This document shows, one piece after another, positions 43,578 through 52,094 of a DNA stretch of 52,094 bases. The translations under genes and the position numbers were made by a program. This DNA comes from Candidatus Fermentibacterota bacterium (GTDB lineage Bacteria; Fermentibacterota; Fermentibacteria; Fermentibacterales; JCC-6), in assembly GCA_030592645.1 (NCBI GenBank), contig JAUVIR010000015.1, forward strand, positions 1 through 52,094, in the 5' to 3' direction. The stretch's first letter is position 1; the number at the start of each line of letters is the position of its first letter. The notes beneath the pieces are model-generated. The model saw nothing but the letters and a program-made list of their open reading frames with translations, was not told the origin of the DNA and ran no database searches.

Positions 43578-44315
43578 TTATGGCACAGGCAGGAGATCGC
43601 TGAAACTGACCGTTTCCCGTCTTCCCAGAAGGGTTTTTAACCGCTCAATGACCGCTTTCTGTCTAACATCGTCCTCGAAGTCACAGGGATGAATGGCGAA
43701 TCTTACCGCAGGGGAACCTCGCAGAAGCATACCGGAAACAGTTACCCAGAATGCCGCAAGAGTTCTTTTCACAAAGCTGCCACCCGCATAGTTCACAGCA
43801 GGCATTCGAAGAATAGTCCGGTCTGTTCGGGGGTCCCAGATGCGCCACCTGCTCTCCGCGAAGGTGAACCCGGTTCTCGCCAGTGCTGCTATCGAACTTC
43901 TGCTGTACAACCATGCCGGAGCAACAAAACCGTTGACTTCAATACCAAGAGTCCGTTCAAGAACCGCGCGGCCCTCAAGAAGAAGTTTTTCCGCCGCTTT
44001 TTCATCAAGACCCAGAAATTCACCTTCGCCCCTGGTGAACAGAGCCGACCTGATCCTCTCTGAGATAGACAAAGGGGAGCTGCCGGCTATATGCTTAAAA
44101 CCGTGAAGAACCACCTCCACTCCATTTCTCTCCAGCTCTGAAAGCCATTTGCAGAAATCAGGGAATTCGTCCAGCAGCCACCTTCCATGGTAGTCCGGAA
44201 CAACCAGCATGCTGTACCTTCTGACCCCGAGTTCCCGAAGAGCGGAGTGTATCCTTCTCAGGGTCTCTTCATGAGCCGGCGTCACATCGTGCACGGTCAG
44301 TTGCAGTCGTTTCAC
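43578..44315 (-). CDS. Polysaccharide deacetylase-like protein (DUF2334 type)
   Basis: About 245 residues from a GTG at 44315; a GTG at 44330 would add five residues and overlap the upstream gene. The N-terminus LQLTVHDVTPAHEETLRRI holds the metal-site Asp, and VVLHGFKH the histidine, of the NodB-like barrel in DUF2334 proteins. GFVAPAWLY and FAIHPCDF follow as later barrel strands. It may remove acetyl groups from a glycan. It is the last gene of the metK operon, after a glycosyltransferase, which fits a glycan role. Confidence 0.82.
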   Translation of the reverse strand: MKRLQLTVHDVTPAHEETLRRIHSALRELGVRRYSMLVVPDYHGRWLLDEFPDFCKWLSELERNGVEVVLHGFKHIAGSSPLSISERIRSALFTRGEGEFLGLDEKAAEKLLLEGRAVLERTLGIEVNGFVAPAWLYSRSSIAALARTGFTFAESRWRIWDPRTDRTILRMPAVNYAGGSFVKRTLAAFWVTVSGMLLRGSPAVRFAIHPCDFEDDVRQKAVIERLKTLLGRRETVSFSDLLPVP

Positions 44316-44317
44316 GA

Positions 44318-45523
44318 TTATTTCCACCACCTGTCCGGTGAAACCAGTCTCTCAACGTCCTTCTCATCGAAGGCATCAATTATCCTTTCGTAGAAACTCT
44401 CGATTTTCCTGAAAACATCCTCCCAGGAATGCCTCTCAACGGCGTACTTCCTGAGATATTTAGTGGTTTCTTTATTGGATATTGCTGCAGCCTGAGAAAT
44501 GAAGTCAGCCAGGCTTTCAGGGTTACCGGACTCGAAGGGAGGAAGAAGACCAAGAGACACTGCCATTTCACCCGAAGCGGATACATCGGGAAAGACGGGA
44601 ACGGTACCGGACGCAATCGCCTCAAGGCCTGCGAGTCCGAATGTCTCATACCGGCCCAGGGCCAGAAAGACATCGGAGGATGCCATAGCTTGCGCAACGT
44701 CATCTCTGCCGCTGAGAAAGGGCAGACGATGGATTTCAGGGTACTTATCGATGAAATCACTCACAATACCTTCGTGCGGACCGCGGCCCCCTATGACAAG
44801 CTTGATCCTGCGGGGATCTCTGAAAAGCGGGTAAGCCTCCATCAGAAGGTCCAGTCCCTTCTCCCAGTGAAGCCTTGCAAGATACAGAACGATCCTGCAC
44901 CCTGCGGATGCGCCGACTTCCCTTCGGAACCCGCTTGAGAATGCAGACGGAGAAAACCTGTCCGTATCAACTCCAAGAGGGGTATGAAAGAGTCTTCTTA
45001 AACCGGCTTCGTACAGCTTCTGAAGCATGCATTCTGAAGCGGCAAAAACCGCTGTCATACGGCTGTAGTGCCTGCTGACATGGTTTACGGCAATCCTGCG
45101 AAACCGCTCGGCAACTTTCGAGGGAAATATCTTCCCGGCGTAGGGACCTATATAACTATCCGGAAAGTCCGAATGGTAGAAACCTACCGTTGGAACCGGG
45201 GAGGCGCCCAGGGCTCTGCCAACAAGAGCCGGAAGAAGATAGGGGCTTCCTATCTCAATAATGTCAGGTCTGAAATCGAGAAAGGCGGAATTGAGACCTC
45301 CGCTGTCTACTATCATGCGGTACCCGGATTTGAATAGAGGTACGGATCGCAGCGTGTATACCCCGGTGCCGCCCCTGAGGGTCAGGCTGTCATCCTTTCC
45401 GGGGATAACCAGGGCGGCGGTGTGACGGGGATGTTCGGAAAAGTATTCAAGCTTCCTGTCATGGTAAACCCGTATTCCTCCGCCGACACTGGAATACAGG
45501 CTGTTCACATCACAGATTCTCAT
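44318..45523 (-). CDS. Glycosyltransferase family 4
   Basis: A 401-residue GT-B enzyme. The N-terminal acceptor loop SSVGGGIRVYHDRK, the middle VPTVGFYHSDFP, YLARLHWEKGLD and GGRGPHEG, and the C-terminal donor motif YETFGLAGLEAIASG (with paired glutamates) are clear. The N-terminus resembles GDP-mannose-dependent alpha-mannosyltransferases, but sugar specificity is inference. It begins 6 bases after the metG stop and its stop codon lies within the start region of the deacetylase-like gene, so the pair is coupled. Confidence 0.9.
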   Translation of the reverse strand: MRICDVNSLYSSVGGGIRVYHDRKLEYFSEHPRHTAALVIPGKDDSLTLRGGTGVYTLRSVPLFKSGYRMIVDSGGLNSAFLDFRPDIIEIGSPYLLPALVGRALGASPVPTVGFYHSDFPDSYIGPYAGKIFPSKVAERFRRIAVNHVSRHYSRMTAVFAASECMLQKLYEAGLRRLFHTPLGVDTDRFSPSAFSSGFRREVGASAGCRIVLYLARLHWEKGLDLLMEAYPLFRDPRRIKLVIGGRGPHEGIVSDFIDKYPEIHRLPFLSGRDDVAQAMASSDVFLALGRYETFGLAGLEAIASGTVPVFPDVSASGEMAVSLGLLPPFESGNPESLADFISQAAAISNKETTKYLRKYAVERHSWEDVFRKIESFYERIIDAFDEKDVERLVSPDRWWK

Positions 45524-45529
45524 TTGCGC

Positions 45530-47551
45530 TCAGTGTATGCCGTCACCCGGACCGGCATCACTTCCCGGCTGAAGAAGATACACGCCGCCCTTTCCATCAT
45601 CTGATGCCAGAACCATTCCGTTGCTTTCAACCCCCCTTATCTTAATCGGCTGAAGATTGACCAGAACTACTACTTTCCTGCCGATCAATTCTTCCTTCGA
45701 ATAGAAAGGTTTCATTCCCGCAACCAGTTGACGTGTATGATCGCCCATGTCCACCATGAGCCTGAAGAGTTTGTCGGCACCTTCTATATCATCGACCTCT
45801 TTAACAACACCTGCTCTCATGTCGATCTTCATGAAATCATCGTAGGATACCGTTTCTTTGATAGCAGGCCTATCAGTTTCCTGTTCGGCTGATTCGGATT
45901 TGCTGCCCTCCTGCTGCATAACTTTCTCAAAACCCTTCTTGAGCTTCTCAAGCAGTATTTCAGGCTCTCCAAGCTTTCGTCCGAACGGAATATTCTCGCC
46001 GCCGGCATCTCTCCAGAGCAGCGAATCGCTGCCAAGCATCCTGCCGGTTTTCTCGCAGGTGAACGGAATGAAAGGGGCGAACAGTATCCGGAGAGTGTCA
46101 GCTAATTGAATGCTGTAATAGATGGTTGTTGCGCACTTATCCCTGTCTGTCTGCGCGGTTTTCCACGGTTGGGACTGATCGAAGTATCTGTTGCCCTCTC
46201 TTGCGAGGTCCATTACCCGAAGACAAGCAGCCTTGAGTTTGAAATTCCGCAGCAGCTCTTCCATCTCGTCGCGGGCGGCGGCGGCGGATGTCATGAGCTT
46301 CGTCTCCTCCGGTCCCGCCGCTCCGGGCTCCGGTACCAGTCCATCGAATGTCTTATGAGCAAATTTCATTATCCTGTTGACGAAATTCCCGTAAACATCT
46401 GCAAGTTCATTGTTCTTTTGCCGGAACTCATCCCATGTAAAGTCGGCATCACGATTCTCCGGTGCGTTTATGGCAAGAGCATACCTCATGGGGTCAGGGG
46501 GGAAGTGAGCCAGATAATCCGTCAGCCAGATCGCAGTTCCCCTGCTTGTTGAAATTTTCTGTCCATTGACGGTAAGGTATTCGTTGGCAGGAATATTCCA
46601 TGGAAGAACGTAGTCACCGAGACCGTGGAAAACGGAGGGTTCAATGATCGCGTGAAAAACAATATTATCCTTCCCGATGAACTGCACCAGGCGGGTTTGC
46701 GGATCGTACCAGTAATCCTTCCAGCCCTCCGGTTCCCCTTTTCTCGCGAACAATTCCATAGTGCTGCTCACGTAACCGAGTAGTGCTTCGAACCATACGT
46801 AGAGAACTTTTCCCTCAGCCTCCTTCAGGGGGACAGGTACGCCCCAGTCAAGATCCCTTGTGATGGCCCTTTCCCGGAGACCGTCTTTCAGCCAGCCCCG
46901 GCAGTAGTTGAGCACATTATTCTTCCAGCCGGCGTGAGATCCCAGCCACCCTTCAAGCCATTCCTGAAAAGCGTTCAGCCTGAGGAACCAGTGTGTAGTT
47001 TCCCGGGGGGCGGGTGAGGAACCGCATATTTCGCAGATCGGCTCCAGAAGATCGAGCGCATCAAGCCATGATCCGCAGTCTTCACACTGATCTCCCCTGG
47101 CTCCCTCCGAGCCGCACTGCGGACAGGTACCTCCAACGTACCTGTCGGGCAGAAACCGATCACACTTATCGCAGTAGAACTGCTTCATGGATTTCTCAAC
47201 AATGTATCCCCTGGAAAGCAGGTTCAGAAAAACATCCTGTGTGAACTTGTAGTGTTCCGGCTTTTCGGTTCTGGAGAAATTATCAAAGGAGATTCCGAAA
47301 CGCTCAAAATCCGATCTGATGATCTCATGGTATCTGTCAACAACCTCTCGGGGAGTTATTCCCATCTGCTCAGCCTTGATGGTTATGGGAACACCATGCT
47401 CATCTGTGCCGCAGATGTACAGCACATCCTCCTCGCACATTCTGAGAAAACGGACGTATATATCAGCCGGCAGGTATGCCCCGGCCAGGTGCCCCAGATG
47501 TGACGGACCGTTTGCGTATGGAAGCGCGCTTGTTACCAGATATCTTGACAT
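45530..47551 (-). CDS. metG: Methionyl-tRNA synthetase with C-terminal tRNA-binding domain
   Basis: The start is the ATG at 47551, behind GGAGAAAC, giving 673 residues. Class I signatures are the HIGH-like PSHLGHLAG near residue 17 and the KMSKS-like QKISTSRG. Between them are two zinc-knuckle cysteine pairs (CGTCPQCG region and CEDCG/CEICG). The C-terminal 110 residues are an EMAP/Trbp tRNA-binding OB fold (FMKIDMRAGVV, LFRLMVDMG, SNGMVLASDD). The gene follows ricT by 31 bases. It belongs to an operon led by metK, which joins methionine charging and SAM synthesis. Confidence 0.95.
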   Translation of the reverse strand: MSRYLVTSALPYANGPSHLGHLAGAYLPADIYVRFLRMCEEDVLYICGTDEHGVPITIKAEQMGITPREVVDRYHEIIRSDFERFGISFDNFSRTEKPEHYKFTQDVFLNLLSRGYIVEKSMKQFYCDKCDRFLPDRYVGGTCPQCGSEGARGDQCEDCGSWLDALDLLEPICEICGSSPAPRETTHWFLRLNAFQEWLEGWLGSHAGWKNNVLNYCRGWLKDGLRERAITRDLDWGVPVPLKEAEGKVLYVWFEALLGYVSSTMELFARKGEPEGWKDYWYDPQTRLVQFIGKDNIVFHAIIEPSVFHGLGDYVLPWNIPANEYLTVNGQKISTSRGTAIWLTDYLAHFPPDPMRYALAINAPENRDADFTWDEFRQKNNELADVYGNFVNRIMKFAHKTFDGLVPEPGAAGPEETKLMTSAAAARDEMEELLRNFKLKAACLRVMDLAREGNRYFDQSQPWKTAQTDRDKCATTIYYSIQLADTLRILFAPFIPFTCEKTGRMLGSDSLLWRDAGGENIPFGRKLGEPEILLEKLKKGFEKVMQQEGSKSESAEQETDRPAIKETVSYDDFMKIDMRAGVVKEVDDIEGADKLFRLMVDMGDHTRQLVAGMKPFYSKEELIGRKVVVLVNLQPIKIRGVESNGMVLASDDGKGGVYLLQPGSDAGPGDGIH

Positions 47552-47582
47552 TGTTTCTCCAGGTTCGGGGAATAGTGCTGTT

Positions 47583-48464
47583 TCATTCCTTCTGGTCACG
47601 AGGTTTCTTGAGAGGTTTCTTTCTCCTGTGGAACTTCTCGATGTCCATGACCTTTTCTTCTTCATCCTCCAGCTGAATGGTTACCGTCTCTCTGAATATG
47701 TCAACTGCGATGATCTTTCCCTCCCTCTTTCCGATCCTCGTTCGAGAACCGAGCTGAGGGTAGAGTTTAGAGGCCTTTCTGTAAAAATCAGTTTCGTAAT
47801 TCAGGCAGCACATCAGTCGGCCGCAGACACCAGATACTTTGGAAGGATTTGGCGCCAGGTCCTGCTCTCTGGCTGTCTTGAGGGTAATCGACCTGAAATG
47901 CGACAGATAGGAAGCACAGCATAACCTCTTTCCGCACAAACCTATACCGTCCTTCTGCCTGGCATCGTCCCTTACACCTATCTGCCTCATCTCTATTCTT
48001 GCATGGAACTTACTTGCAAGATCCCGGACAAGACCTCTGAAATCCTTCCGCTGGTCAGCCGTGAAATATATCCGTAATTTTCTTCTGTCCAGCTGTGATT
48101 CACAGCTGGTAAGCTTCATATCCATGCTCCTTGTTGAGACTCTTTCCATGCAGAACTTCAACACTTTTTTCTCGAATTCCCTGTTCTGCTGATCCTTCTG
48201 AAGGTCATCAGGTGTAGCTTTCCGCACAAAATGGCCGTTTATGGAAGCTACAGGATCCCTTGGATCGTACTTCGCGATGACCATCCCGAGATCTTCCCCT
48301 CTGTCCGCGGAAACAACGACCAGATCACCAACAGAAATAGGTTTTTTTGAAAGGTTGATGAAGGTATCAAGCCTTCGCGAACTGAACAGAAGCCGGAAAA
48401 GCTCGATGGCACTGGACCTTTCCTTATCGTAGTTTTCACTGCTTCCGTTTTCGTTCTCACTCAC
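47583..48464 (-). CDS. ricT: PSP1-domain protein RicT (YaaT)
   Basis: About 293 residues from a GTG at 48464; an ATG at 48512 is in frame but would overlap holB by 43 bases. The PSP1 core has VGDLVVVSADRGEDLG, GLCGKRLCCASYL and GVCGRLMCCLNYE, whose cysteines bind iron-sulfur in the Bacillus Y-complex. In Bacillus, RicT helps RNase Y mature polycistronic mRNAs and affects biofilm and sporulation. The C-terminus is strongly basic (RRKKPLKKPRDQK), suggesting RNA contact. The holB-ricT neighbourhood is widely conserved. Confidence 0.92.
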   Translation of the reverse strand: MSENENGSSENYDKERSSAIELFRLLFSSRRLDTFINLSKKPISVGDLVVVSADRGEDLGMVIAKYDPRDPVASINGHFVRKATPDDLQKDQQNREFEKKVLKFCMERVSTRSMDMKLTSCESQLDRRKLRIYFTADQRKDFRGLVRDLASKFHARIEMRQIGVRDDARQKDGIGLCGKRLCCASYLSHFRSITLKTAREQDLAPNPSKVSGVCGRLMCCLNYETDFYRKASKLYPQLGSRTRIGKREGKIIAVDIFRETVTIQLEDEEEKVMDIEKFHRRKKPLKKPRDQKE

Positions 48465-48469
48465 ATAAC

Positions 48470-49558
48470 TCAATTCAATGATTCCTTTCCAGATCTGATT
48501 GTACTCTTCCACATACCGGTGAATGCCGCTGCCAGAACTACTCCAGACATACCGTTTCGGGCAAGTCTGGTTTCAGCCCTGCGGAACAGTTCCACGCCGC
48601 AGCCGCAGGCATGTTCATCGATACTGAAGCCCTGAAGGGCTTTCAGAGGATGAACAACAGGCTCCTTGTCAAAGGCGCATCTCCTGAGATCATGGATGAA
48701 TGTCTGCATGTTTCTGCAGAACTCCAGGGATCTTTCCCTGCCCAGTTTCCGTGCAACCTCAGTGGCCAGGGCTACCGCTGACCATCCCGAACTGCATTCG
48801 GTTATCCTCCGCAGAACATTTTCCGGTCCGTACTTGAGCTCCGCCTCTGATGGGTTCAGAGCTTTCAGAAGGGCGATACCGGGTCTTCCATCGGAAGCCT
48901 TTGCAATATCGCGGGCATCCTCTTCTCCCAGAGCCAGCCGGTCCATCAGAATTCCCCTGATAGTATCCTCATTAAGCCTCCTGAACCTTATGAGGTGTGA
49001 ACGGGACCTGACGGTAGGAAGCAGGGCAGACCATTTTGAACTGATAAGTATTATTACGGTTTCGTCTGGAGGTTCCTCAAGTGTTTTCAGCAATGCGTTT
49101 GCAGCCTCCACTCCCATTGTATCCGCATAAGTAATGATCTCTATATGCCCTTTGTCCTCGAAAGCCTTTTTTGAGATCCGTACTCCCATTTCCCTTATCC
49201 GGTCAATGCTTATCCTGATGTTCCCCGCAAGCCGAAGCGACGAAACACCGTCATCCACTCTTGACTTGAGAAGCTTTGCTATCTCTTCGGGCTTGGTGCT
49301 TCCAAGCTCGGGAATAGTAAGTCTGACATCGGGATGCTCGAATCTGAATACCCTTATGCAGTCCCTGCACTCGCCGCAGTAACCGTCCTTGTCCTCCTCG
49401 CACATCCAGGCTGCCGCAAGCTCAAGCGCGGCGGTAAGCTTGCCGACACCGGAGGGACCGGCGAAAAGGTAAGAATGGGCAAGTCGTCTTTTTGAATATG
49501 ACCTGCTCAAAAGCTCATCCGCTCGATCCTGACCTATGACCTTCTTCAATATACCCAT
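48470..49558 (-). CDS. holB: DNA polymerase III delta prime subunit
   Basis: A 362-residue AAA+ clamp-loader subunit. The P-loop is GPSGVGKLT, and zinc-binding cysteines follow in CEEDKDGYCGECRDC. The domain 2 sensor EEPPDETVIILIS is visible. A typical DnaX-like Walker B is replaced by IEIITYADTM. The DELLSRSYSKRRLAHSYLFAG start is standard for HolB. It begins 2 bases after the EnvC-like gene. The C-terminal collar is 360-typical in length. Confidence 0.92.
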   Translation of the reverse strand: MGILKKVIGQDRADELLSRSYSKRRLAHSYLFAGPSGVGKLTAALELAAAWMCEEDKDGYCGECRDCIRVFRFEHPDVRLTIPELGSTKPEEIAKLLKSRVDDGVSSLRLAGNIRISIDRIREMGVRISKKAFEDKGHIEIITYADTMGVEAANALLKTLEEPPDETVIILISSKWSALLPTVRSRSHLIRFRRLNEDTIRGILMDRLALGEEDARDIAKASDGRPGIALLKALNPSEAELKYGPENVLRRITECSSGWSAVALATEVARKLGRERSLEFCRNMQTFIHDLRRCAFDKEPVVHPLKALQGFSIDEHACGCGVELFRRAETRLARNGMSGVVLAAAFTGMWKSTIRSGKESLN

Positions 49559-49560
49559 AT

Positions 49561-50676
49561 CTACTGCAGATACTCCTCGGGATTCAACGGTTCTCCTCCC
49601 CTGCGGATCTCGAAATAGTATCCAGGCCGCCCTCCAGGTACCGATCCGGATCTGCCCAGCGCAGATCCTGGATCAAGCACATCACCGACGCTGACCATGA
49701 CCTGCCCAAGATAACCGTATATCGTGTAATAACCATCCTGGTGATCAAGAACAACCATATACCCCATGCTCAGGTATTCACTGGCGAACATTACCTCTCC
49801 AGGTGCCGATGCGCTGACATCCTGCGACGGGGCAGTAACAACGGTTATTCCATCGCTTACGGTCTCGGTCCCGTACTGCGGATTCGTCTGTATTCCAAAA
49901 CCCCTGATCACTTCTCCTGCAGCAGGCCAGTTTATGCTGCCCCGCTGGCGCTCAATAAAGCTGTTCATGTCCGGCTGCGTGAGAGGTACGGAGACGGAAG
50001 AAGGGCTTGAACGGGTACTGAGCTGAGTTACAAACTGAGCCCTGCTTACTCTCCTGTCTTCAAGTACGGCCAGAGATTCCTCAGCGGCGGCGATCCTTCC
50101 CATTATCTGATTCCTCATTGTAACCTGGCGCGCCTCTTCAACGTATATACGCTCCTGCGTCTCCTCCATCTGATGCCTCAGCTGCTGCACGTTGACAAGA
50201 AGGACTTCAAGTGAATCACGGAAACTGCCAAGCGAATCCTGGCTGATCGAGAGCATGAACACTTCACCCGCTGCCTTTGATGCGAGATAATCCACGTAAG
50301 CCTGCCTGTGGAGCATCCTGCTGAATCCTCCCTCCACGAAAAAGCTGCCTATTCCTCCGAGGTTCCGATGAGAGTACAGGTAGATCATGTACGACGAAAG
50401 GCTTTCAACCAGGGCTTCCCGCAACGAATCCTCAGAGGTGAACACACCGGATACACTGCTTAACTGCTGGAGTATTTCCGCCTCTTCCAGCGCCAGCTCA
50501 TTGTAGTAACTTCTGGAGGTGAGAATGTGCTGGTGGATTGCATCAAGGATAGTGGATACATTCGCTCCCTCCTCCTCAAGGAGGGCTATCTGCTCCTGAG
50601 TTTGCTGCACGCAGGCATCAAGGCTGTCAAGTGAGCTGGCGGAAATCAGTGCCGCAAATAGCATCAGTGCAGTCAA
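49561..50676 (-). CDS. EnvC-like murein hydrolase activator with degenerate LytM domain
   Basis: A 371-residue exported protein starting at TTG at 50676, behind GGGAGG. A short hydrophobic N-terminus (LMLFAALISASS) is followed by a long coiled coil (about residues 20-215) and then an M23/LytM fold (INWPAAGEVIRGFG onward). The catalytic histidines and aspartate of active LytM are not found: the last HxH position reads YYFEIRRGG and the first His site is replaced in VSDGITVV. This is the EnvC pattern, in which the domain activates amidases instead of cutting peptidoglycan. No FtsEX is nearby. Confidence 0.88.
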   Translation of the reverse strand: MTALMLFAALISASSLDSLDACVQQTQEQIALLEEEGANVSTILDAIHQHILTSRSYYNELALEEAEILQQLSSVSGVFTSEDSLREALVESLSSYMIYLYSHRNLGGIGSFFVEGGFSRMLHRQAYVDYLASKAAGEVFMLSISQDSLGSFRDSLEVLLVNVQQLRHQMEETQERIYVEEARQVTMRNQIMGRIAAAEESLAVLEDRRVSRAQFVTQLSTRSSPSSVSVPLTQPDMNSFIERQRGSINWPAAGEVIRGFGIQTNPQYGTETVSDGITVVTAPSQDVSASAPGEVMFASEYLSMGYMVVLDHQDGYYTIYGYLGQVMVSVGDVLDPGSALGRSGSVPGGRPGYYFEIRRGGEPLNPEEYLQ

Positions 50677-50697: not shown

Positions 50698-51855
50698 TTA
50701 CAGAAGCCTTGAAGCCAGTTCCTCGGCCCTGTCGGTTTTCTCCCAGGAAAAGAACCCGCCAGCTTCAGGTTCTCTGCCGAAATGCCCGAAGGAGGATGTG
50801 CTTGAAAAAATAGGTTTCCTGAGACCAAGATACTCAATAATCCTGTAGGGGCGAAGGGGGAATATATCCCTGATCACCTTTTCAATGGAAGCACCATTGC
50901 GGATTTTGCCTGTTCCGAAGGTTTCCACCATTACCGAAACCGGTTCCGCTCTGCCTATTGCGTAGGCAAGCTGAATTTCGCATCTATCTGCAATGCCTGC
51001 CTTTACAATGTTCTTTGCGATATGCCGGGCCATATATGCAGCCGAACGATCGACTTTTGTCGCGTCCTTACCTGAGAACGCTCCGCCCCCGTGTCTGCCT
51101 GAACCCCCATACGTATCAACAATTATCTTTCTTCCTGTCAGCCCTGCGTCTCCGTGAGGGCCGCCTATAGCGAACCTGCCGGATGGATTGAACAGGAACT
51201 TCCCGCTCCATTTCAGAATCGGTTTGCATCTTTGCAGCACGGGTGTGATGACCTTTTTCAGTATATCATCTTCCATATCACCTTGTTCAGCATCAGGTGC
51301 ATGATGAACGGAGATGAGGAGCTCATCGATGGAAATGGGTGTATGTCCTTCGTATTCGACGGTCACCTGACTTTTCGCATCGGGTCTTGCCCATGGGATA
51401 TCCCCCGCTTTGCGTGATTCCCTTAATTGCTCCAGAAGCCTGTGCGCCAGCTGAACGGGGTAGGGCATAAGGACTTCCGTTTCTCTGCATGCGAAACCGA
51501 ACATCAATCCCTGATCCCCTGCACCCTCGTTATCAACTACACCATGATCGATATCAGGTGACTGAGAATGTATTCTGATTCTGTACGTATTCTCGCTGAA
51601 ATGAAAACCCAGATCCGGGATTTCGTACCCTATCGAGCGGATTGTATCCCTTGCCACCTTCTCATAATCCACACTGGAGCGGCTCTTCACTTCACCCGCC
51701 AAAAGGCAGAAATTGGTAGTTACTAGGGTTTCGCAGGCAACGTGTGCATCCGGGTCATCCTTGAGATGCGCGTCAAGTACAGCATCAGAGATCTGGTCAC
51801 AGATCTTGTCGGGATGCCCATCGGAAACGGATTCGCTGGTAAACATTGTACCCAT
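50698..51855 (-). CDS. metK: S-adenosylmethionine synthetase
   Basis: A 385-residue bacterial-type MAT. It has FTSESVSDGHPDKICDQIS at the N-terminus, the adenine-binding GAGDQGLMFG, FLFNPSGRFAIGGPHGDAGL, and GGGAFSGKDATKVDRSAAY. It makes SAM from methionine and ATP. The start ATG at 51855 has a GAGG 11 bases upstream; a second ATG nine bases on is equally possible. It is the first gene of an operon that continues through the EnvC-like gene, holB, ricT and metG. Its leader carries a SAM-II-like aptamer and terminator, so the whole operon is probably under SAM feedback. Confidence 0.96.
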   Translation of the reverse strand: MGTMFTSESVSDGHPDKICDQISDAVLDAHLKDDPDAHVACETLVTTNFCLLAGEVKSRSSVDYEKVARDTIRSIGYEIPDLGFHFSENTYRIRIHSQSPDIDHGVVDNEGAGDQGLMFGFACRETEVLMPYPVQLAHRLLEQLRESRKAGDIPWARPDAKSQVTVEYEGHTPISIDELLISVHHAPDAEQGDMEDDILKKVITPVLQRCKPILKWSGKFLFNPSGRFAIGGPHGDAGLTGRKIIVDTYGGSGRHGGGAFSGKDATKVDRSAAYMARHIAKNIVKAGIADRCEIQLAYAIGRAEPVSVMVETFGTGKIRNGASIEKVIRDIFPLRPYRIIEYLGLRKPIFSSTSSFGHFGREPEAGGFFSWEKTDRAEELASRLL

Positions 51856-51886
51856 GATAAGATAAACCTCGCCAATTCTAGTGCCG

Positions 51887-51914
51887 AAAAAAGAAAACCG
51901 CCTGCCGGCGGCTT
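51887..51914 (-). terminator. Intrinsic terminator in the metK leader
   Basis: On the minus strand AAGCCGCC pairs with GGCGGTTT (8 bp including a G-T) around GGCA, followed by TTTTCTTTTTT. It ends 31 bases before the metK start. A flanking GCCGA/TCGGC pair (bases at about 51926-51930 and 51882-51886) could compete with the aptamer or extend the stem. This position, between a promoter and metK, implies transcription attenuation. Confidence 0.8.
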
Positions 51915-51928
51915 GAGGGTGAGCTATC

Positions 51929-51982
51929 GGCTTTTTAGCACTTTTTTTAGTGTGGTTGCAATATTCCCCAAATCATTCCACA
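51929..51982 (-). promoter_or_regulatory. SAM-II-like riboswitch aptamer
   Basis: The minus-strand RNA begins with stem TGTGG (51982-51978), closing with CCACA (51955-51951). Its loop contains GATTT, GGGG and ATATTGCA in order, and an A-rich 3' segment ends GCTAAAAAGCC. From memory the SAM-II consensus has the same order: P1 stem, GAUUU, UAUUGCA, then an A-rich strand ending GCUAAAAAGG. The pseudoknot is plausible but imperfect (ATATT with AAAGT has one A-A clash; GG with CC is changed on both sides). Location at the predicted transcript start and just before metK strongly supports it. Confidence 0.65.
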
Positions 51983-51990
51983 TGAAAGTA

Positions 51991-52018
51991 ATGATACACT
52001 AAATCCTGCTGAAGTCAA
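51991..52018 (-). promoter_or_regulatory. Sigma70-type promoter for the metK operon
   Basis: On the minus strand TTGACT (52018-52013) and TATCAT (51996-51991) are separated by 16 bases, each one base from consensus. The expected transcript start is near 51984, two bases before the aptamer stem. Confidence 0.65.
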
Positions 52019-52026
52019 CATCTGAC

Positions 52027-52060
52027 GGGGGGGGGGCGGGGGGGGGTTTTTTTTTTTTTT
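52027..52060 (+). other. Low-complexity G-run then T-run near the window end
   Basis: Nineteen G with one C (52027-52046) run directly into 14 T (52047-52060), followed by AT-rich sequence to the end. It resembles a sequencing or assembly artefact at a contig end, not a biological feature. Confidence 0.7.
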
Positions 52061-52094
52061 GTTATGTTTATATATTTTCCACTAAAATACCAAC

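Follow-up and report, generated by a model that had tools for sequence, protein, structure and literature searches.

The stretch of DNA considered here (the window) is the 52,094-nucleotide contig JAUVIR010000015.1 of a Candidatus Fermentibacterota bacterium, and the features of interest lie towards its end on the minus strand. Open reading frames and Pfam domains define a series of nearly contiguous or overlapping genes headed by metK (S-adenosylmethionine synthetase, 385 aa; 50698..51855), which is followed by the gene for an EnvC-like M23 peptidase (49561..50676), holB (DNA polymerase III delta', DNA_pol3_delta2; 48470..49558), ricT (PSP1 domain; 47583..48512), metG (methionyl-tRNA synthetase, Pfam MetRS; 45530..47665) and two further genes encoding a GT4 glycosyltransferase and a DUF2334 protein (43578..45523). 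Pfam bears out the names metK, holB, ricT and metG used in a preliminary description of this locus, whereas envC was that description's own name for a gene in which Pfam shows an M23 domain only. The same description had placed a promoter, an RNA with the strand order of a SAM-II riboswitch and a terminator ahead of metK; all four elements are confirmed on the minus strand where it had put them.

In a cmscan search of the whole window, the sole match over any Rfam cut-off is to RF01726, the SAM-II long loop family, at 51987-51925 on the minus strand, with 44.4 bits against a gathering score of 44 and an E-value of 2.8e-5 (52 kb, all families). The covariance-model check that had been suggested earlier is thereby passed with RF01726, whereas the model actually named, RF00521 (SAM_alpha), reaches 25.2 bits on 51400-52094 at a permissive threshold and stays under its cut-off of 36. 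SAM-V gave no match in the window, nor in 51400-52094 at E up to 10, and SAM-I (RF00162) gave none at E <= 0.001 in the window's genome.

The aptamer (51925..51987) can be laid out strand by strand, with its positions numbered from 1. The 5′ strand of P1, TGTGG (51978..51982), pairs with CCACA (51951..51955) and is also a proposed anti-terminator strand. The UUU of loop 1 (51970..51972), by homology the third strand of the SAM-binding triplex, is followed by the outer P2 5′ strand (GG plus an A that is unpaired in the window; 51965..51967, alignment columns 21-23) and by the P2 core 5′ strand AUUGC (51958..51962), which is invariant in 35 of 35 aligned aptamers. On the other side stand the P2 core 3′ strand GCUAAAA (51933..51939), which carries the SAM-contacting U and A residues and whose first G forms a C-G pair in 33 of the 35, and the outer P2 3′ strand GCC (51929..51931, alignment columns 57-59). 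That P2 pairs imperfectly, as remarked in the preliminary description, is right for the window's clade: the A at aptamer position 23 faces G57, so that two Watson-Crick pairs remain in outer P2. Its last pair is formed in 30 of the 35 genomes and broken in the window and four others.

Across the 35 aligned aptamers, UUU (positions 16-18), UAUUGCA (25-31) and CUAAAA (50-55) never change. In the structure of the SAM-V riboswitch, SAM is held by UUU, A-U-U-G and U-A-A-A, and SAM-II is described as binding SAM in virtually the same way (PMC6061858); the match of the invariant bases to these contacts was made by eye, by motif order. The aptamers of this phylum appear to keep the published SAM-binding core, and SAM binding itself is predicted on these grounds. 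The preliminary description had raised the idea of a divergent SAM-II subclass, which is not supported: the core is invariant and ordinary, and of 11 loci from relatives the RF01726 cut-off is exceeded by seven and the RF00521 cut-off by two, one locus exceeding both and three neither. By its core, the element in the window is an ordinary SAM-II aptamer.

Searching 42 genomes of the phylum with RF01726 at E <= 0.001 returned a match in 35, one each and covering nine of nine genera; 19 of these lie over the family's cut-off and 16 below it. In every one of the 35, the aptamer precedes metK, whose start (assigned by our own rule) lies 48-70 nt 3′ of it. A model built from the phylum's own aptamers and run with stricter filters gave no second SAM-II match in any of the 42 genomes (E <= 0.001). 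MetK itself was found in 38 of the 42 genomes, and none of the seven genomes that lack the aptamer has an assembled metK start. In two of them, G002 and G023, metK is cut by a contig end. A third, G024, holds on a 3.4-kb contig (contig 61, locus L179) a metK fragment that spans residues 198-318, contains one internal stop and has no N-terminal half, though the contig extends 1.6 kb further upstream. The other four (G009, G013, G017 and G020) have no MetK match. No metG orthologue was found in G009, G013, G020 or G024 either, so that these assemblies are missing most of the operon, if not all of it. With no readable metK leader in any of the seven misses, every genome that does have one carries the aptamer (35 of 35). 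Conservation of the leader in relatives, another of the checks suggested earlier, is thus borne out, with covariation in addition, and the recurrence of the aptamer before metK in 35 genomes is more than chance.

Alignment of the 35 leaders permits the proposed structure, i.e. P1, P2 core, outer P2 and terminator, to be scored as a whole. Paired bases fill 94.4% of its cells, and six of its pairs change on both sides, neither of which was reached by any of 500 shuffles; versions of the structure slid along the alignment are 28-59% paired. The number of pair types over the whole structure is not above shuffles (269 of 500 reach it). Within the aptamer, an H-type pseudoknot, the paired fractions are 98.9% for P1, 95.2% for outer P2 and 97.1% for the P2 core, and both-sided change is seen in one pair of P1 and in one of outer P2, the latter in one genome. 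P1 covaries in its outer pair alone (CG in 18 genomes, UA in 10, UG in 5, other in 2), the other four of its five pairs never varying (n = 35). In outer P2, a G-C pair has become A-U in G006 and the last pair varies between U-G, C-G and U-A. The terminator stem covaries as well (35 genomes). The stability of the minimum-energy fold of the whole leader is not above that of shuffles (z 0.40), a measure that is uninformative because the aptamer is a pseudoknot.

A sigma-70-like promoter, TTGACT-16-TATCAT (51991..52018, minus strand; 10 of 12 matches), lies just upstream, the end of its −10 box being 9 nt ahead of the P1 sequence GTGG. Over the 35 genomes, the best promoter match in the 60 nt upstream has a mean of 9.2 of 12 and a range from 6 (G004, a poor match) to 11, compared with a mean of 7.1 and a maximum of 7.6 for letter shuffles (n = 200). 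As the −10 box ends 6-14 nt ahead of P1 in all of them, the transcript probably begins at, or just before, the aptamer. Upstream of the promoter and near the contig end, 52027-52060 consists of a run of 14 A and then a C-rich run; a shorter C-rich stretch occupies the same place in the relative G008. This sequence could be a slippage site or an artefact of the assembly end.

Between aptamer and metK stands an intrinsic terminator, composed of the hairpin AAGCCGCC-GGCA-GGCGGTTT (51895..51914) and, directly after it, the U-tract TCTTTTTT (51887..51894). A terminator with a U-tract is present in 33 of the 35 genomes, the two without a U-tract being G041 and G006. Just ahead of the hairpin, the linker CCTC (51915..51918) is complementary to loop 1, which reads UUUGRGGY in most genomes and contributes GGGG as the partner of the linker in the window and GAGG in the larger part of the relatives. 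In pairing tests of this proposed anti-terminator contact, a genome's own loop 1-linker pairing was reached by permuted partners in 4 of 20000 permutations (30 distinct combinations), in 62 of 20000 when a single genome per genus was kept, and by letter-shuffled linkers in 0 of 2000, with the reservation that the permutation tests do not fully remove relatedness among the genomes. In a fixed register, the pairing of the variable aptamer position 23 with the linker was reached by 2 of 2000 permutations; position 24 is not above permutation (531 of 2000), the three U of loop 1 are uninformative, and the helix as a whole is modestly above permutation (24 of 2000 reach it), its count of pair types not being so (1621 of 2000).

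Together, loop 1 and the P1 5′ strand can extend by 4 nt or more into the terminator hairpin's 5′ arm in 35 of 35 genomes (shuffles: mean 24.3; 0 of 300 reach 35), and the resulting anti-terminator has a mean energy of −12.6 kcal/mol over the 35 genomes, which none of 300 letter shuffles reached. In the window, the anti-terminator (−13.0 kcal/mol) and the terminator (−12.6 kcal/mol) lie close together; in G033 and G038, the former is far weaker (−6.2 and −7.7 versus −12.9 and −14.5 kcal/mol). In ViennaRNA predictions, which leave out pseudoknots, the nascent RNA favours the anti-terminator in 20 of the 35 genomes, including 12 of 13 in g1 and 1 of 13 in the genus g3. The anti-terminator and the SAM-bound pseudoknot would be mutually exclusive because both use the same strands. 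On this basis, there is fair support for the loop 1/P1 anti-terminator as the probable working alternative fold, weak as it is in g3.

To follow the genes behind the switch, twenty relatives were fetched. G006 is readable up to holB, and the sequence of G031 stops behind metK; in all 18 with enough sequence, representing seven genera, the order is metK-M23-holB-ricT-metG. In each of the six fetched relatives from g1, metG is followed by the GT4 and DUF2334 genes. The operon strand shows no terminator-like site between 43400 and 51000, and the proposal of an operon has gained support from both this result and the fixed five-gene order. Outside the phylum, none of 80 named metK loci (chosen by similarity and, by their titles, mostly Bacillota) has holB, ricT or this M23 gene at E <= 1e-4 in flanks of up to 6 kb, and six of the 80 show some metG similarity beside metK.

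Several features of these genes merit mention in their own right. The metG open reading frame has 38 extra codons at its start (47551-47665) that overlap ricT; alignments to relatives start at residue 28-40 in 13 of 18 cases and at residue 1-8 in five, and the ATG near 47551 may be the actual start. In g3, RicT carries a Lys/Arg-rich C-terminal tail of 58-113 residues (loci L142, L143, L149, L158 and L160), and in these five loci the apparent ricT-metG gap is this basic tail, which reaches or passes the start of the metG match. Methionine synthesis in the phylum looks reduced or unusual by domain searches: PF01717, the MetE C-terminal family, has no match in any of the 42 genomes, a strong Cys/Met PLP enzyme (E < 1e-100) occurs in seven of 42, and the MetH activation domain is weakly and partially matched in 12 of 42.

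The reading that best accommodates these observations, and which we regard as highly likely, is that a SAM-II riboswitch turns the metK-M23-holB-ricT-metG operon off by transcription termination, with SAM binding and the control of genes beyond metK as its predicted parts. RNA polymerase would start at P1 or a few bases before it. At low SAM, loop 1 (UUUGRGG) together with the GUGG of the P1 5′ strand would base-pair with the CCUC linker and with the terminator's 5′ arm, which would block the terminator and let RNA polymerase read into the operon. When SAM is plentiful, the strands of P1, loop 1 and P2 would be held in the pseudoknot, leaving the terminator hairpin free to form; transcription would then stop before metK and the operon would be shut off. 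By this route, SAM would lower the expression of holB, ricT and metG. The interpretation given in the preliminary description is supported in its principal points.

Other readings share parts of this evidence. The riboswitch might act mainly on the translation of metK, with SAM freeing the linker CCUC to mask the Shine-Dalgarno sequence; the linker is indeed complementary to Shine-Dalgarno sequences of the GAGG type, and the crystallised metX SAM-II riboswitch is described as translational (PMC6061858). However, a genome's own linker-Shine-Dalgarno pairing is weaker than that of permuted partners (4976 of 5000 reach it), by which the linker is rejected as an anti-Shine-Dalgarno, and a terminator with a U-tract is present in nearly all genomes, so that a mainly translational switch is very unlikely. 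A different alternative fold, in which the freed P2 3′ strand captures the 3′ arm of the terminator, draws its appeal from g3, where the P2 strand resembles the terminator 5′ arm, where the loop 1 anti-terminator folds poorly and where the pairing would amount to −9.0 to −14.0 kcal/mol (−5.4 to −15.7 kcal/mol over all genomes). Own partners nevertheless pair no better than permuted ones (665 of 5000 reach), and in 30 of 35 genomes this pairing is weaker than the local terminator hairpin. As the main anti-terminator, this pairing, which exists and yet does not beat permutation, is rejected; that it operates at all, perhaps in g3, is unlikely.

Two more readings concern the effect of the switch. 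Its effect could be confined to metK, with holB, ricT and metG mostly driven by internal promoters, and three weak promoter-like sites (9 of 12 each) do lie on the operon strand at 49143-49116, 47307-47279 and 46395-46368; in addition, holB and metG are essential in model bacteria. Yet, such sites may be chance, as the two strands together hold seven of them and shuffles yield 5.3 (sd 2.2), and the genes are closely packed in an order fixed in 18 of 18 relatives. A metK-only effect is on the unlikely side. The most sceptical reading, a relic or look-alike without a ligand response, can point to the marginal Rfam score of the window's copy and to the fact that SAM binding by this RNA is a prediction. 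Against an invariant SAM core in 35 of 35 aptamers, covariation and a fixed place before metK, we consider it extremely improbable.

Termination by a SAM-II switch may not be the whole of the arrangement, as the sequence immediately after the U-tract could act on read-through RNA. CGGC (51883..51886, minus strand) is complementary to the P2 3′ strand and does not vary among all 14 genomes of g1 and g2, where the bases that follow it are mostly variable. A 5-6-nt complement to the P2 3′ strand, required to contain at least three G or C, is found in all 14, compared with a mean of 0.6 and a maximum of four of 14 in 1000 shuffles. G006, one of the two genomes without a U-tract, has an 8-nt perfect P2 complement after the hairpin (4 of 20000 shuffles reach it), and among the other 20 genomes only G003 has a complement, of 4 nt. 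Within g1 there is no covariation of this complement: CGGC is followed by A in three of 13 genomes and by C in one of 13, and the last pair is lost. Only transcripts that read through could contain such a latch, and there it would be a competitor of P2; equally possible is that CGGC belongs to a compound stem around the terminator instead. A bolder version would see a one-way device that sets the supply of SAM together with replication and translation: both arms of the terminator would have rival partners in the aptamer, CGGC would seize the P2 3′ strand and render escaped transcripts blind to SAM, and in G006, a single genome of another family, the 8-bp latch (AGUCGGAU:AUCCGACU) would be the main expression platform. 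We offer it as a distinctly unlikely proposal.

SAM-II also occurs outside this phylum. The preliminary description gave its distribution as mainly Alphaproteobacteria and Bacteroidetes, which is broadly right and incomplete, as γ-Proteobacteria are added in PMC2258182. Among 343 genomes from outside the phylum, at least seven match RF01726, a lower bound owing to stricter filters. Two of these matches (G374 and G156) lie directly before metK, with no obvious terminator behind the aptamer by eye; three (G277, G274 and G136) lie before what appears by eye to be a Cys/Met-type PLP enzyme gene; and two (G123 and G283) have no metK match within the few kb fetched. The model trained on the phylum yielded five matches in the same 343 genomes, the strongest being in G277, G274 and G136. 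The loci outside the phylum with an apparent Cys/Met-type PLP enzyme gene behind the aptamer (by eye) are L168, L169 and L170, and behind the aptamer of L168 a hairpin resembling a terminator, with a T-run, can be seen by eye.

SAM-II with a terminator was already known; the phylum and the fixed operon are new, as is the latch that read-through RNA may carry. A literature search, in itself a weak basis, returned no earlier report of SAM-II in this phylum or before this operon. The presence of one copy per genome, always before metK, in a little-studied phylum is relevant to the question of an ancient origin of SAM-II in this part of the bacterial tree versus its transfer between phyla. If the operon is one transcript, the level of SAM would set not only its own synthesis but also that of a clamp-loader subunit, an RNA-processing factor and the Met-tRNA synthetase, a reach that would be unusual for a SAM switch. 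Moreover, terminating SAM-II switches gain a concrete model of an anti-terminator, in which loop 1 and the P1 strand pair with the 5′ arm of the terminator.

Set against known systems, the element combines familiar parts in an unfamiliar place. With the RF01726 set it shares the core, i.e. the GAUUU of loop 1, AUUGCA and GCUAAA; unlike that family as tabled in PMC2864571, where 'SAM-II long loops' are listed from Bacteroidetes and marine sequences, it is found in another phylum, is followed by a terminator and heads a metK-holB-ricT-metG operon. SAM_alpha (RF00521) is of the same class, its cut-off being passed by two of the 11 relatives' loci and not by the window's copy. The SAM-V riboswitch, which precedes metY, has the same SAM-binding core and is described as translational (PMC6061858), whereas the SAM-II element in the window has a terminator after it. 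According to the same source, most SAM-II riboswitches are transcriptional, and in some tandem SAM-II arrangements each aptamer has its own terminator (PMC9481103). In S. meliloti, SAM-II examples precede metA and metZ, and the metZ switch is predicted to terminate transcription in response to SAM, with a short riboswitch RNA as the product (PMC9373788). The S. meliloti metZ switch stands before a gene for methionine synthesis, while the one described here stands before metK together with genes of translation and replication.
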